Below are positions 33,609 through 39,428 of a DNA stretch of 45,011 bases, one piece after another. Under the pieces are notes generated by a model. That model searched no databases and was not told where the DNA came from. It saw only the letters and a list, made by a program, of their open reading frames with translations. The DNA is from Bacteroidia bacterium (GTDB taxonomy: Bacteria; Bacteroidota; Bacteroidia; M30B66). Position 1 is the first letter of the stretch, and every line of letters starts with the position of its first letter. The DNA is taken from NCBI GenBank assembly GCA_018401705.1, contig JAGYKL010000027.1, forward strand, positions 1 to 45,011. Reading direction: 5' to 3'. A program made the position numbers and the translations under genes.

Positions 33609-34424
33609 TTATTTAGTCTGAGATTCGAAAGTTGAAACTAGGCTATATCCAGATTCATCAATTTTGTAAGTAAGCTGATCTATCTGTGTAGTAAAATAGT
33701 TATACATAATGATTGCAATTGTCGAACCTGTAATTCCTAAAGCTGTATTGATAAGGGCTTCAGAAATTCCATTTGCAAGAGCAACTGCATCTGGAGCTCC
33801 TGCTTGTGCAAGTGCCGAGAATGCCTTAATCATCCCAAGTACAGTCCCGATTAGACCCACAAGGGTAGAAATAGATGCCATTGTAGAGATTATTACCAAA
33901 TTCTTGGAAAGCATTGGCAATTCAAGTGAAGTGGCTTCCTCAAGTTCTTTTTGCATAGCAATAACTTTTTGCTCCTTATCCATGCTATTATCATTCTGAA
34001 GTTGACTATATTTCTCCAAACCAGCTTTCATAACATTTGCTAAAGAACCTTTTTGCTTATCGCATTCTTTTGCAGCTGCATCAATTTGGTTATTTGAAAT
34101 CATATTCTGAAGATTTCTAACGAATACATTAATTTTTCCTTTCCCTTTAGCTTTAGATAAAGTCATAAATCGCTCTATAGAAAAAGCAATAATGATCACA
34201 ACAATTGACATAAGGATAGGTACAATAAAACCTCCCTTGTAAACAATTCCTAAAGTATTGCCAGGAAGAGGATGTCCTAAAACAGGATCTCCACCTTCAA
34301 AATTGGAAGGGCTTCCCATAATAAACATGTATACCAACACACACACTAGGATAGATGATAAGATTACGGTTGCAGCGAAAAATGCTCCGATACCACTGCC
34401 TTCAGACTTCTGCTTATTGCTCAT
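33609..34424 (-). CDS. exbB: ExbB/TolQ/MotA-family proton channel
   Basis: The 271-residue protein has three membrane segments: an N-terminal helix (about 12-34), one around residues 66-85, and a C-terminal pair containing the family block VGLIGTVLGMIKAFSAL and ALINTALGITGSTIAIIMYNY. It forms the pentameric proton channel that powers TonB. It is first in the minus-strand operon, read from the promoter at 34487-34515. Confidence 0.95.
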   Translation of the reverse strand: MSNKQKSEGSGIGAFFAATVILSSILVCVLVYMFIMGSPSNFEGGDPVLGHPLPGNTLGIVYKGGFIVPILMSIVVIIIAFSIERFMTLSKAKGKGKINVFVRNLQNMISNNQIDAAAKECDKQKGSLANVMKAGLEKYSQLQNDNSMDKEQKVIAMQKELEEATSLELPMLSKNLVIISTMASISTLVGLIGTVLGMIKAFSALAQAGAPDAVALANGISEALINTALGITGSTIAIIMYNYFTTQIDQLTYKIDESGYSLVSTFESQTK

Positions 34425-34515: not shown

Positions 34516-34618
34516 AGTCTACAAAAAAAGCCAATTATCGCTTAACACAGAAAACAAAATAATAATATTGTTTTAATACTGCATATACATAATATTAGGA
34601 TTACTTCAACTTTTGTAT

Positions 34619-34648
34619 TTGGCAAATGGAAAACTTATTTTACTTTTG
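34619..34648 (+). promoter_or_regulatory. Promoter of the rimP-nusA-infB operon
   Basis: TTG (34619-34621), a 19-nt spacer and TACTTTTG (34641-34648) are an exact match to the Bacteroidota consensus. It is divergent from the exbB promoter about 100 bp away. Confidence 0.87.
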
Positions 34649-34662
34649 CACCGGCTAAAACA

Positions 34663-34688
34663 AAAAGAGGGACAGTGTCCCTTTTTTT
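34663..34688 (+). terminator. Leader terminator/attenuator before rimP
   Basis: An A-run, stem AGGGAC/GTCCCT with loop AGT (34668-34682), then seven T residues. It lies about 15-40 bp downstream of the promoter -7 box and 18 bp before the rimP ATG. A strong intrinsic terminator in the leader of an operon that encodes NusA suggests attenuation; the mechanism is inference. Confidence 0.72.
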
Positions 34689-34706
34689 ATTAGTTTAAGG
34701 TAAAAT

Positions 34707-35177
34707 ATGATTAACAAGAATACATTGATCAATTTAGTAGAAGACTACCTAAAAGAGTCTGACAACTATTTAATTGATGTTTTAATAAGCAGTTCTAATA
34801 AAATTCGTGTTTTCATTGAGAACGATGAGCATGTTTCTATTAAAGATTGCATTGCCTTGAGTAGACATATTGAATCTAATTTAGATAGAGAAAAAGAAGA
34901 CTTTGAACTTGAGGTTTCATCTCCTGGTATTGATCAACCGTTTAAAAGCATTCGTCAATACCGAAAATACATAGGTAAAGCTGTTGAAATCTTGCTCAAT
35001 GACGGAGACAAGTTGAAAGGTGAATTAGCCGATTGCGATGAAGTAGAAGTTAGTTTTCTTTCCCAAATCAATAAAAAAGGAAACAAGAATTTAAAACAAA
35101 CTTTACATATAGATAATAAGCCAACAAAGATTTCTTTAAATGATATTAAAGAAACTAAGTTGATAATTGTCTTTTAA
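34707..35177 (+). CDS. rimP: Ribosome maturation factor RimP
   Basis: The 156-residue protein is needed for 30S subunit maturation. The N-terminal RimP domain is seen with FELEVSSPGIDQPFKSIRQY (about 71-90), the family's key block, and an SH3-like C-terminal half around KLKGELADCDEVEVSF. It is first in the canonical rimP-nusA-infB order, 16 bp before nusA. Confidence 0.94.
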   Translation: MINKNTLINLVEDYLKESDNYLIDVLISSSNKIRVFIENDEHVSIKDCIALSRHIESNLDREKEDFELEVSSPGIDQPFKSIRQYRKYIGKAVEILLNDGDKLKGELADCDEVEVSFLSQINKKGNKNLKQTLHIDNKPTKISLNDIKETKLIIVF

Positions 35178-35193
35178 TAATGGATATAACACA

Positions 35194-36429
35194 ATGGAAC
35201 ACGCAGCTTTAATTGAATCGTTTGCAGAATTCAAAGAATTCAAAAACATCGACAGAGTTACCATGATGGGAATTCTTGAAGATGTGTTCCGCAATATGAT
35301 CATTAAGAAGTACGGCTCTGATGAAAATTTTGACATAATTATCAATATTGATAAAGGTGATCTTGAAATTTTCCATAATAGAGAGATTGTTAATGATGGA
35401 GAGGTGGAAGACACTAATAGCCAAATAGCTTATTCAGAAGCAATTAAAATAGAACCTGACTTTGAAGTTGGTGAAGAAGTTTCTTCTGAAGTGAAGCTTA
35501 ATGATTTCGGGAGAAGAGCTGTACTTGCATTCAGGCAAAATCTAGTTGCCAGAATCTCCGAATTAGAAAAAGACGGTGTATACAGAAAGTACAAAGACCG
35601 TGTCGGTGAAATTGTTACGGGTGAGATTTATCAAGTTTGGAAAAAGGAAGTATTAATTTTGGATGAAGAAGGCAACGAACTTATTATTCCAAAGCAAGAG
35701 CAAATCCCAAGCGATTTTTTCAAAAAAGGAGAAAATACAAGGGCCGTTGTTTTGAGGGTAGATATGAAAAATAGCTCTCCACAGATTGTTCTTTCAAGGT
35801 CATCTCCAGTATTTCTTGAAAAATTATTTGAACAAGAGGTTCCTGAAGTTTTTGATGGATTAATTACAATTAAAAAAGTAGTTCGTGAACCTGGCGTAAG
35901 AGCAAAAGTTGCAGTGGAAAGCTACGATGACAGAATCGACCCAGTTGGGGCTTGTGTAGGAATGAAAGGTTCAAGGATTCATGGTATTGTAAGAGAATTA
36001 AGAAATGAAAATATAGATGTTATTAATTACACAAATAATACATCGTTATACATAACTAGAGCTCTAAGTCCTGCAAAAATTTCTTCAATTAAATTAAATG
36101 AAGAAAAAATGCGCGCAGATGTTTTCCTTAAACCTGATCAAGTCTCCTTGGCAATTGGTAAAGGAGGTTTGAATATTCGTCTTGCAAGTAAACTAACAGG
36201 TTACGAAATTGATGTATACCGTGATTCTGAAATGGATAGTGAAGATGTTGACTTAGATGAGTTTGCAGATGAAATCGATAGCTGGATTCTAGACGAATTA
36301 AAAAGCGTTGGTTGCGATACAGCCAAGAGCGTCTTGGAACTTCCTGTTGATGATTTAGTAAAAAGAACTGACCTTGAAGAAGAAACAATTAAAGAAGTGA
36401 TAAGAATTCTTAGGGCAGAATTTGAATAA
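35194..36429 (+). CDS. nusA: Transcription termination/antitermination factor NusA
   Basis: The 411-residue protein shows the NusA layout: N-terminal RNA-polymerase-binding domain (1-125), S1 domain with VGEIVTGEIYQVW (about 130), KH1 with GACVGMKGSRIHGIVREL (about 252) and KH2 with SLAIGKGGLNIRLASKLTG (about 320), then an acidic tail with a helix-hairpin-like end. The frame is open from a TTG at 35167 inside rimP, but ATG at 35194 (MEHAALIESF) is the natural start. NusA affects pausing and termination and could act on the leader terminator of its own operon. Confidence 0.95.
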   Translation: MEHAALIESFAEFKEFKNIDRVTMMGILEDVFRNMIIKKYGSDENFDIIINIDKGDLEIFHNREIVNDGEVEDTNSQIAYSEAIKIEPDFEVGEEVSSEVKLNDFGRRAVLAFRQNLVARISELEKDGVYRKYKDRVGEIVTGEIYQVWKKEVLILDEEGNELIIPKQEQIPSDFFKKGENTRAVVLRVDMKNSSPQIVLSRSSPVFLEKLFEQEVPEVFDGLITIKKVVREPGVRAKVAVESYDDRIDPVGACVGMKGSRIHGIVRELRNENIDVINYTNNTSLYITRALSPAKISSIKLNEEKMRADVFLKPDQVSLAIGKGGLNIRLASKLTGYEIDVYRDSEMDSEDVDLDEFADEIDSWILDELKSVGCDTAKSVLELPVDDLVKRTDLEEETIKEVIRILRAEFE

Positions 36430-36470: not shown

Positions 36471-39428
36471 ATGTCTGAATCAACACAAAATAAAAGAATA
36501 AGTAAAGTTGCTACTGAACTCAATGTAGGAGTTCAGACTGTTATTGACTTTCTCACTGAAAAGGGCTTCGAAGATATTAGTCGAAACTCTAAGATCTCAG
36601 ATGAAATGTACGATAGCTTGCTTAATGAATTTGGCGACGAAAAGACTGTTAAGGAAGAATCTAAAAAAATCATCCAAAACAGATTAAAGAGAGAATCAAT
36701 TTCATTGGATGAAACTCAATCTTTAGTTCGCAATGAAGAGCCTGAGAATGAGCCAGAGGAAATTCTAATTAAAGGATTAGGATCCATTGGAAGCCCTGCC
36801 CCAGTAATTGAAGAAAATAAACCTTTTGAAGTTGAGGCTGAAATAAAAATCGAACCAGACGCTAAAATTGAGGTTGAGATTGAGGAGGAGAAAAAAGAAG
36901 TTACTACCACTCCTTCAGATATACATGAAGAAAAACCAGAGGTGGTATCTGAATCAATATCTGAAGAAAAGTCAACTGACTCTAAAGTAAAAGTTGTTGG
37001 AAAGATTGATTTGGATTCGTTCAAAAGACCTTCCAAATTAAAGAAAGACAGCCCAAAGAATAAAAAGACATCAGAAAACAAAGAAACTTTTGACAAGGTT
37101 GAGTTAGAAAAGCAAGAATCTAAATCTGGAATTTCTGATAAAGAAGAACCAAAAGCCACTATCACGCAGGATATACCAACTGATGAAACAACTGTAATAT
37201 CAAGTGATTCAAAGACATCTGAAACCAAGGAGGTCAAAGATTCAATTACATCTGAACCACCTGTAAATGAACCTCCTAAGGAGGCAGAATTATTTAGGGC
37301 TAAGCGTGATAAACTTGAGGGTGTAAAAATCCTTGGAAAAATTGAACTTGCTCCTGAGGCTCCAAAGAAACCAATAGCTTCTTCATCAGGAGCCGGCCTA
37401 GGTTCGAATGATCGAAAGAAAAAAAGAAAGAGGATTGTAGATTCTCCATCTGGAGGAGTAAACCAACAAGCGCCTCGTGAAAATAAGCCGAAGGGAAATA
37501 ATAGACCTGTTACTCCTGCTAAACCACAGCTAACAGAAGAAGATGTTCAAAAGCAGATAAAGGAAACTTTAGCAAGATTAAGTCAAGGAAAACAAAAATC
37601 TAAATCGGCCAAATACAAAAAACAGAGGAGAGAAGATTATAAAGCTGCTCAAGAAGAAGCAGCTATGGAAGGAGAAGATAAAATCATTAAAGTTACTGAA
37701 TTCGTTTCCGCCAATGAATTGGCGACAATGATGAACGTTCCAGTTAATGAAATCATCTCAACTTGTATGTCACTTGGTTTATTTGTTTCAATAAACCAGC
37801 GCCTAGATGCAGAAACATTAACTATAGTAGCCGACGAGTTTGGTTACAAGGTTGAATTCGTTTCTGTTGAGGTTCAGGAGGCTATCAAGGAAGAAGAAGA
37901 TACAGATGAAAATCTAAAATCCCGTCCACCAATTGTAACTGTTATGGGTCACGTAGATCATGGTAAAACCTCATTACTTGACTATGTGCGAAGCGCAAAT
38001 GTAATTGCGGGAGAAGCGGGCGGAATCACTCAACATATAGGTGCATATAATGTGACTATGGAGAATGGGAAGCAAATCACTTTCTTAGACACTCCCGGAC
38101 ACGAAGCTTTTACGGCTATGCGTGCTAGAGGTGCTCAAGTAACAGACGTAGCTATCATTGTAATTGCAGCTGACGATAGTGTTATGCCGCAGACAATTGA
38201 AGCTATAAACCATGCCCAAGCAGCTCAAGTACCTATTGTATTTGCCATAAATAAGATTGATAAGCCGGGAGCGAATCCAGACAAAATAAGGGAGCAGTTA
38301 GCCGCGATGAATATACTTGTTGAAGACTGGGGAGGTAAATATCAAGTGCAAGAGGTAGCTGCAAAACTTGGTAAGAATATAGATAAGTTACTTGAGAAAG
38401 TGTTGCTTGAAGCTGAATTACTTGAATTAAAAGCTAATCCGGAAAAGAGAGCAACAGGAACAGTGATAGAGTCTGAATTGGATAAAGGGAGAGGCTATGT
38501 AACAACCCTAATTGTTTTAGCTGGAACTCTAAAAGTTGGAGATGTAGTTCTTGCTGGTCCATACAGTGGTAAAGTAAAAGCTCTTTTCAATGAAAGAGGC
38601 GCCCCAATTAAAGAAGCTGGACCATCTATGTCTGCTCAAATATTAGGCCTTAGCGGTGCACCTTCTTCAGGCGATCGTTTCAATGTTATGAGCGATGAGC
38701 GCGAAGCACGTGATATTGCAAATAAGCGACAGCAATTACAGCGAGAACAAGGTATCAGAACTCAAAAGCATATAACTCTTGACGAAATTGGAAGACGGAT
38801 TGCAATTGGAGATTTCAAAGAACTTAATATCATTGTTAAAGGGGATGTTGACGGATCAGTTGAAGCCCTTTCTGATTCATTGCTGAAACTTTCAACTGAG
38901 AAGATTCAAGTTAATATTATACATAAGTCTGTTGGTCAGGTTACAGAAAGCGACGTTTTACTCGCATCGGCTTCTAATGCTATCATCGTTGGTTTCCAAG
39001 TTAGACCATCTGCATCTGCTAGGAAGCTAGCTGAAAATGAGCAAATAGACATGCGTTTCTATTCAATCATATATAAGGCTATTGAAGAGATAAAAGCTGC
39101 AATGGAAGGAATGCTAGCTCCTGAATTCGAGGAGAAAATTGTTTGTAACGTTGAAGTTCGAGACGTGTTTAAAATTACAAAAGTTGGAACTGTTGCAGGC
39201 TGTTATGTCTTAGACGGTAAAATAACTAGAAACACTAAAATCAGACTTATCAGAGATGGAATAGTTGTTTACTCTGGAGCTTTAGGTTCGCTTAAAAGAT
39301 TCAAAGATGATGTTAAAGAGGTTGCAACTGGTTACGAATGTGGTTTAAACATTCACAACTTTAATGATATTAAAGTTGGAGATATCATCGAAGGATATGA
39401 GAACGTTGAGATTAAAAGAAAACTTTAA
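36471..39428 (+). CDS. infB: Translation initiation factor IF-2
   Basis: The 985-residue protein starts with an IF2-N-like helical domain ([20 protein letters not shown], about 10-29), then a long charged Glu/Lys-rich linker (about 60-400), a second IF2-N domain (about 408-460), the GTPase with [11 protein letters not shown] (near 493), DTPGHEAF and NKIDKPG, then domains II-IV ending [17 protein letters not shown]. The linker is long, as is common in Bacteroidota IF-2. It ends directly against the converging SPOR gene, with no spacer. Confidence 0.96.

Follow-up and report, generated by a model that had tools for sequence, protein, structure and literature searches.

The window analysed here, a 45,011-nt stretch of a Bacteroidia genome, carries a rimP-nusA-infB operon behind a short leader in which a promoter is followed by a hairpin and a run of T residues. 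The features of the locus are:

33609-34424, minus strand: MotA/TolQ/ExbB-family gene (PF01618), the nearest upstream gene, divergent from rimP
34618-34621, plus strand: TTTG (read from the sequence), the -33 element of a Bacteroidota-type promoter, with a 19-nt spacer to the -7 box
34641-34648, plus strand: -7 element TACTTTTG, a perfect match to TAnnTTTG (read from the sequence)
34653-34656, plus strand: predicted transcription start, placed from the -7 box
34662-34688, plus strand: predicted intrinsic terminator, AAAAAGAGGGAC / loop AGT / GTCCCTTTTTTT (terminator scan, folding and orthologous hairpins)
34682-34688, plus strand: seven-T tract (read from the sequence), in which a leader RNA of about 34 nt is predicted to end
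34707-35177, plus strand: rimP, ribosome maturation factor (NF002531, above cut-off; PF02576, PF17384)
35197-36429, plus strand: nusA, the proposed sensor (TIGR01953, above cut-off; Pfam domains)
36471-39428, plus strand: infB, translation initiation factor IF-2 (TIGR00487, above cut-off)

The NusA_N, KH_5 and KH_NusA_C domains of the window's NusA exceed their Pfam cut-offs and its S1 domain falls slightly below (21.2 vs 22 bits). Because the MotA/ExbB-family neighbour is divergent, the hairpin is not the 3' terminator of the upstream gene. At the other end of the operon, a gene for a SPOR-domain protein (PF05036; 39429-39899, minus strand) is convergent with infB, and its ORF end abuts the infB stop codon.

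The stem arms of the hairpin (34662-34673 and 34677-34688) form 12 pairs in the terminator scan, around a core of GGGAC-AGT-GTCCC; its start lies 13 nt from the -7 box and its end 18 nt from the rimP ATG at 34707. Folding of the 73-nt leader gives -16.7 kcal/mol (z -3.56), a value that none of 200 shuffles equalled, and the part predicted to be released by termination (34653-34690) has a fold z-score of -3.94. The first-pass annotation had described a hairpin and seven T residues behind a promoter with rimP 18 bp further on, and reading of the sequence, the terminator scan and the fold z-scores confirm this arrangement. It had also spoken of a consensus promoter. The promoter stands but its type needed to be specified: the leader carries the Bacteroidota housekeeping pattern TTTG / about 19 nt / TAnnTTTG, the latter given as the -7 box in the relevant passage of PMC9723704, whereas a sigma-70 scan placed no site at 34612-34648 and found sigma-70 sites in no excess over shuffles (8 vs 11.5). 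From this promoter type, the RimP family and the top-scoring NusA matches with names, we assign the organism to Bacteroidota.

Comparison with related genomes had been suggested as a check on the proposal of an intrinsic terminator in the rimP leader. We applied a single strict rule: a stem of 5 or more pairs that include 3 or more G-C, a loop of 3-8 nt, 5 or more T among the 8 nt that follow and dG ≤ -7, all no farther than 160 nt from a computed start codon. In a class sample biased towards genomes with good scores against the queries, this predicted a terminator in 93 of 100 rimP leaders, 90 of which also have TAnnTTTG within 60 nt upstream, a result that supports the proposal; TAnnTTTG lies within 160 nt of rimP in 97 of these class-mates. 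Dinucleotide shuffles yielded a terminator in 1.6 per 100 and the terminator with promoter in 0.1 per 100. Control leaders from relatives of the same set contained no strict terminator (gyrA 0/30, secA 0/30); only 5 gyrA and 4 secA leaders hold TAnnTTTG, and the controls are therefore a better test of the hairpin than of the promoter-hairpin pair. We also examined 225 other ORF starts, taken from the window and the fetched loci; 3 had both promoter and terminator, and each of these is rimP read from an alternative start. A second set of named genomes (80 loci returned, 77 usable, with L223, L239 and L275 lacking a usable rimP ORF) gave a terminator in 69/77 and terminator plus promoter in 64/77. 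Outside the class but within the phylum, 30 of 37 leaders have the terminator and only 10 have TAnnTTTG within 60 nt.

Seven class leaders escaped the strict rule: in L044 the hairpin lies farther upstream, and inspection by eye of the remaining six reveals hairpins that have longer loops or contain a mismatch. A relaxed finder recovered 100/100 class leaders (250 nt searched), 37/37 from the phylum and 72/77 named leaders. It also matched many shuffles (43/200, 15/74 and 20/154, respectively), and the strict counts are preferred for that reason. Two loci, L030 and L036, were left out because their genomes are identical to those of L071 and L083. The first search for relatives matched 54 genomes and supplied leaders from 52; the loci of the other two (G025 and G051) were viewed later only, L326 having a promoter and hairpin at the rimP end and L328 none. 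The second search matched 214 genomes, from which leaders came from 30 returned loci and 58 picked by place with their leaders unseen. In a MAFFT alignment of the hairpins (A2) the 5' arms were out of register, and it was excluded from pair counts. The upstream neighbour was divergent in 16 of the 26 loci checked.

The anatomy of the leader is compact. Across 90 leaders the stem begins 5-30 nt past the -7 box (median 22.5), or roughly 0-25 nt into the RNA, which leaves no room for an aptamer or antiterminator, and it ends 8-68 nt before the start codon (median 16). No motif was shared between the -7 box and the stem in these 90 beyond A-rich 5-mers. For comparison, a search behind 439 ORF ends of the fetched loci supplied 35 ordinary 3' terminators. 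Median dG is -14.2 and -14.3 in two sets of leader hairpins and -14.6 in the ordinary terminators, with 6.4 and 6.1 vs 6.3 T in the following 8 nt. The stem letters separate the two groups. GGG occurs in the 5' arm of 88/92 class leaders vs 5/35 ordinary terminators, and GGGAC paired with GTCCC in 56/92 class and 39/69 named leader hairpins vs 0/35. The commonest class core is GGGGAC/GTCCCC; GGGAACG/CGTTCCC substitutes for it in several families and GGCACGC/GCGTGCC in L062, L075 and Flavobacterium enshiense (L259). Outside the class we found GTGGG/CCCAC stems and the inverse polarities AGTCCC/GGGACT and TCGCCC/GGGCGA. Pairing and T run persist in these predicted hairpins despite changed stem letters. 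The letters kept within the class exceed what termination needs, and a plain NusA model leaves them unexplained. One leader, from a Butyricimonas MAG (L220), has a strong GAGGGGGC/GCCCCCTC stem and no T run; this stem may have a second role or be a decayed terminator.

Operons in which rimP is missing bear directly on what the element accompanies. In seven genomes (G032, G053, G023, G214, G250, G163 and G033) infB comes immediately after nusA and no rimP precedes the pair; RimP_N scored above cut-off in none of the seven and was found in three known-rimP genomes searched alongside. An eighth locus, L239 from a possibly incomplete Cryomorphaceae single-cell genome, also has no rimP before nusA and was moved to this group from the named set. 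A promoter and a terminator-like hairpin precede nusA in six of the eight (L320-L324 and L239); the strict finder detected 4 of the first seven and the relaxed finder 6/8. By eye, L325 has a 4-pair GGGC/GCCC hairpin followed by six T. The 0.5-Mb genome G033 (L327) has nusA, no rimP match and no leader hairpin, and may have lost this control on genome reduction. Since the hairpin stands before nusA where rimP is absent, the element tracks nusA, as feedback termination by NusA predicts; RimP is accordingly disfavoured as the sensor and NusA fits. IF-2, which is always present too, may also be the sensor. Among three related rimP-less genomes from one family no two stems are alike, suggesting that selection retained the hairpin once rimP had gone and that it is not merely left over.

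We also looked for further copies of the element. A covariance model was built from 19 equal-length hairpins chosen for pairing, which makes the pairing in the model circular. It matched 1-15 places per genome in 50 of 60 genomes. Of these we inspected 29: 20 chosen by position (high-scoring matches away from rimP, one of which is from the window's own genome), and nine more from that genome (13 listed, minus three opposite-strand duplicates and one already fetched). Twenty-one sit 0-30 nt past a same-strand ORF end and only the window's own match has TAnnTTTG just upstream, so there is no sign of a regulon among the 29. The window's match ranks ninth in its own genome; the model therefore does not single out rimP. 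The pattern GGGGACN{3,8}GTCCC, which is strict enough to miss the window leader itself, occurs at 93 places in 46 of the 60 genomes, in the rimP leader in 30 genomes and exclusively there in 17. Its shorter form, GGGACN{3,8}GTCCC, has two places in the window's 3.74-Mb genome, one of them the rimP leader. The other (L319, C89:104293-104305) lies in what is presumably 23S rRNA, to judge by resemblance, and the match is possibly mimicry or coincidence. Elsewhere in this genome (L308, C23:103281-103322) a terminator-like GGGGAAAC/GTTTCCCC hairpin lies 13 nt past one ORF and 227 nt before the next, which we take to resemble ribosomal protein L16; this hairpin is possibly an internal terminator of a ribosomal protein operon. 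Against Rfam, the window gave tRNA alone at the gathering level, and all 23 matches at E ≤ 10 lay below the cut-offs. The gammaproteobacterial rimP leader RF01770 is alike in name and gene context but scores 13.2 bits in the window vs a gathering score of 47; it was above cut-off in 0/60 relatives (sub-threshold matches only).

This kind of control is already known from other bacteria, and the window element is not a product of chance. It is the 'rimP-leader' attenuator, which Naville and Gautheret (2010; PMC2965389) described in other bacteria and called the most ubiquitous of attenuators; in their account the stem reads GGGc(...)gCCC and the likely regulator is NusA. As in that description, the element lies in the 5' UTR of rimP-nusA-infB, has a hairpin followed by a T stretch (by sequence and fold) with a G-rich 5' arm and a C-rich 3' arm, and has the terminator as its sole conserved part, with no larger sensor or antiterminator and a terminator-gene gap of 18 nt (4-130 expected). 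The window's GGGAC/GTCCC retains the GGG and CCC of the signature and has A-T as the next pair, not C-G. The class stem GGGGAC/GTCCCC thus differs from GGGc/gCCC and is replaced in other lineages, and in Bacteroidota, unlike the rimP-leader of that account, a TTTG/TAnnTTTG promoter directly adjoins the terminator. The string 'Bacteroid' is absent from the main text of PMC2965389. Within the phylum, the relevant passage of a Flavobacterium psychrophilum transcriptome study (PMC9723704) names rimP as one of the genes whose 5' elements are structured and conserved and have no Rfam matches. That element, like ours, lies before rimP, and it is transcribed there; the passage names no terminator or mechanism and concerns other genera of one family. 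Among the matches listed, our literature searches showed no further report of rimP or nusA leaders in Bacteroidota. The near-universality of the element in the phylum, its promoter-abutting anatomy, the turnover of its stem and its presence in rimP-less operons appear to be new.

The closest functional parallels come from elsewhere. In Bacillus subtilis, according to the part of PMC12288461 that cites Mondal 2016, NusA autoregulates by stimulating intrinsic termination in its own leader; as in the window, an intrinsic terminator lies in the 5' leader of a NusA-encoding operon. Dependence on NusA was measured there and is proposed here, and the B. subtilis leader is about 180 nt long (as given in PMC2965389), whereas the window stem would begin about 8-10 nt into the RNA. 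In Streptococcus agalactiae, a member of another phylum, the section of PMC4448216 on the rimP-nusA leader maps a 3' end 31 nt past the start at a predicted intrinsic terminator and proposes NusA feedback; start and end are mapped in that species and predicted in the window. In Escherichia coli, the relevant text of PMC6511841 places terminators t1 and t2 upstream of rimP and says that NusA regulates its own operon, and in the K-12 genome (L145) we find GGGCTTTAGGCCC followed by seven T just before rimP. The metY-rimP leader of that species differs from ours in having tandem terminators, a tRNA gene and three promoters upstream.

Based upon these parallels and the domains of the window's NusA, we favour a model in which the hairpin functions as an intrinsic terminator through which NusA attenuates rimP-nusA-infB by negative feedback, and we consider this probable. 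RNA polymerase would start near 34654 and make the hairpin and U tract at once. Free NusA, when plentiful, would join the early elongation complex, slow it and favour folding of the hairpin. At high NusA most transcripts would then stop at a length of about 34 nt; a shortage of NusA would increase read-through and so allow the operon to be expressed. Terminator and NusA together would constitute the sensor, making an aptamer or antiterminator unnecessary. That transcripts terminate here and that NusA sets the efficiency we infer from sequence comparison. The suggestion of NusA feedback in the first-pass annotation is likewise strengthened by the six of eight rimP-less operons in which the element stays with nusA, as expected of a NusA-autoregulated attenuator, and by the B. 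subtilis and S. agalactiae parallels. Several observations weigh against the feedback model. Regulatory and NusA-dependent terminators are described, in the parts of PMC2965389 and PMC8060035 that deal with them, as less stable or as having broken U tracts, and the leader hairpins are no weaker than ordinary terminators by dG or U tract; a strong terminator might not require NusA. L327 retains nusA without the hairpin, and the promoter element close to the hairpin is kept in a minority of leaders outside the class. The hairpin could also outlast the loss of rimP because it came with the promoter.

An attenuator responding to another signal, such as RimP, IF-2, NusG, elongation speed linked to nucleotides or ppGpp, or an RNA-binding protein that reads GGGGAC/GUCCCC, strikes us as unlikely. 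It would account for stem letters conserved within the class beyond the needs of termination (GGGAC/GTCCC in 56/92 and 39/69, 0/35 in ordinary terminators), and infB follows nusA in the rimP-less cases too. A RimP signal is, however, hard to reconcile with an element retained in six of eight rimP-less operons, and a single universal sequence-reading protein with stems that are replaced elsewhere (GGGAACG/CGTTCCC, GGCACGC/GCGTGCC) and run CCC-first in several leaders outside the class. Less likely again is an unregulated throttle, in which the terminator stops a fixed share of transcripts and sets a low level of expression: the hairpins do equal ordinary terminators in strength, but a weaker promoter would suffice for that purpose, near-universal retention with stem turnover suggests regulatory use, and feedback is reported in the B. 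subtilis account (PMC12288461).

There is little to recommend a 5' hairpin for mRNA stability or translation with an incidental T run. The strong stem without a T run in L220 and the weak T runs of L021 and L028 would fit such a role, whereas 93 of 100 leaders have at least 5 T in the 8 nt past the stem and the start codon lies outside it. Hairpins with T runs are common 3' of genes, as the 21 of 29 inspected model matches just past an ORF end illustrate, and on that account we considered whether the element is an inverted repeat arisen by chance or serves to terminate an upstream gene. The divergent neighbour, in the window and in 16 of 26 loci, and the conservation of the element (1.6 per 100 in shuffles) refute this explanation, against which the promoter upstream of the hairpin also speaks, and we regard it as having a negligible chance of being right.

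Returning to the NusA feedback model, a broader formulation can be offered tentatively, and we think it rather less likely to be right than wrong: a sensorless attenuator kept phylum-wide, no more than a promoter-proximal terminator lying too near the start for an aptamer, would have the sole task of reporting NusA (termination) capacity, its stem swapped several times between lineages with function preserved while it stayed with nusA on the loss of rimP, and the fixed Bacteroidia GGGGAC/GUCCCC perhaps being read directly by the KH domains of NusA. Transcription attenuation and NusA function have been little studied in Bacteroidota, and a conserved terminator that begins only about 10 nt from the transcript start would provide the phylum with a minimal built-in reporter of NusA-dependent termination. 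The natural loss of rimP separates two candidate regulators in favour of NusA and bears on what the rimP-leader senses, a question since 2010. With so many variants of the stem occurring in nature, sequence-specific and purely structural recognition could be tested directly against each other.

Finally, 11 of the 60 named loci scanned carry a same-strand tRNA-Gln (TTG) gene upstream of rimP or nusA: L215 (1895-1968), L219 (1893-1964), L224 (1837-1908), L227, L239, L250, L253, L255, L256, L259 and L262. In L215, L219 and L224 it is within 160 nt of rimP and directly upstream of the hairpin, an arrangement that recalls metY before rimP in E. coli, and in L219 it lies between the promoter and the hairpin.
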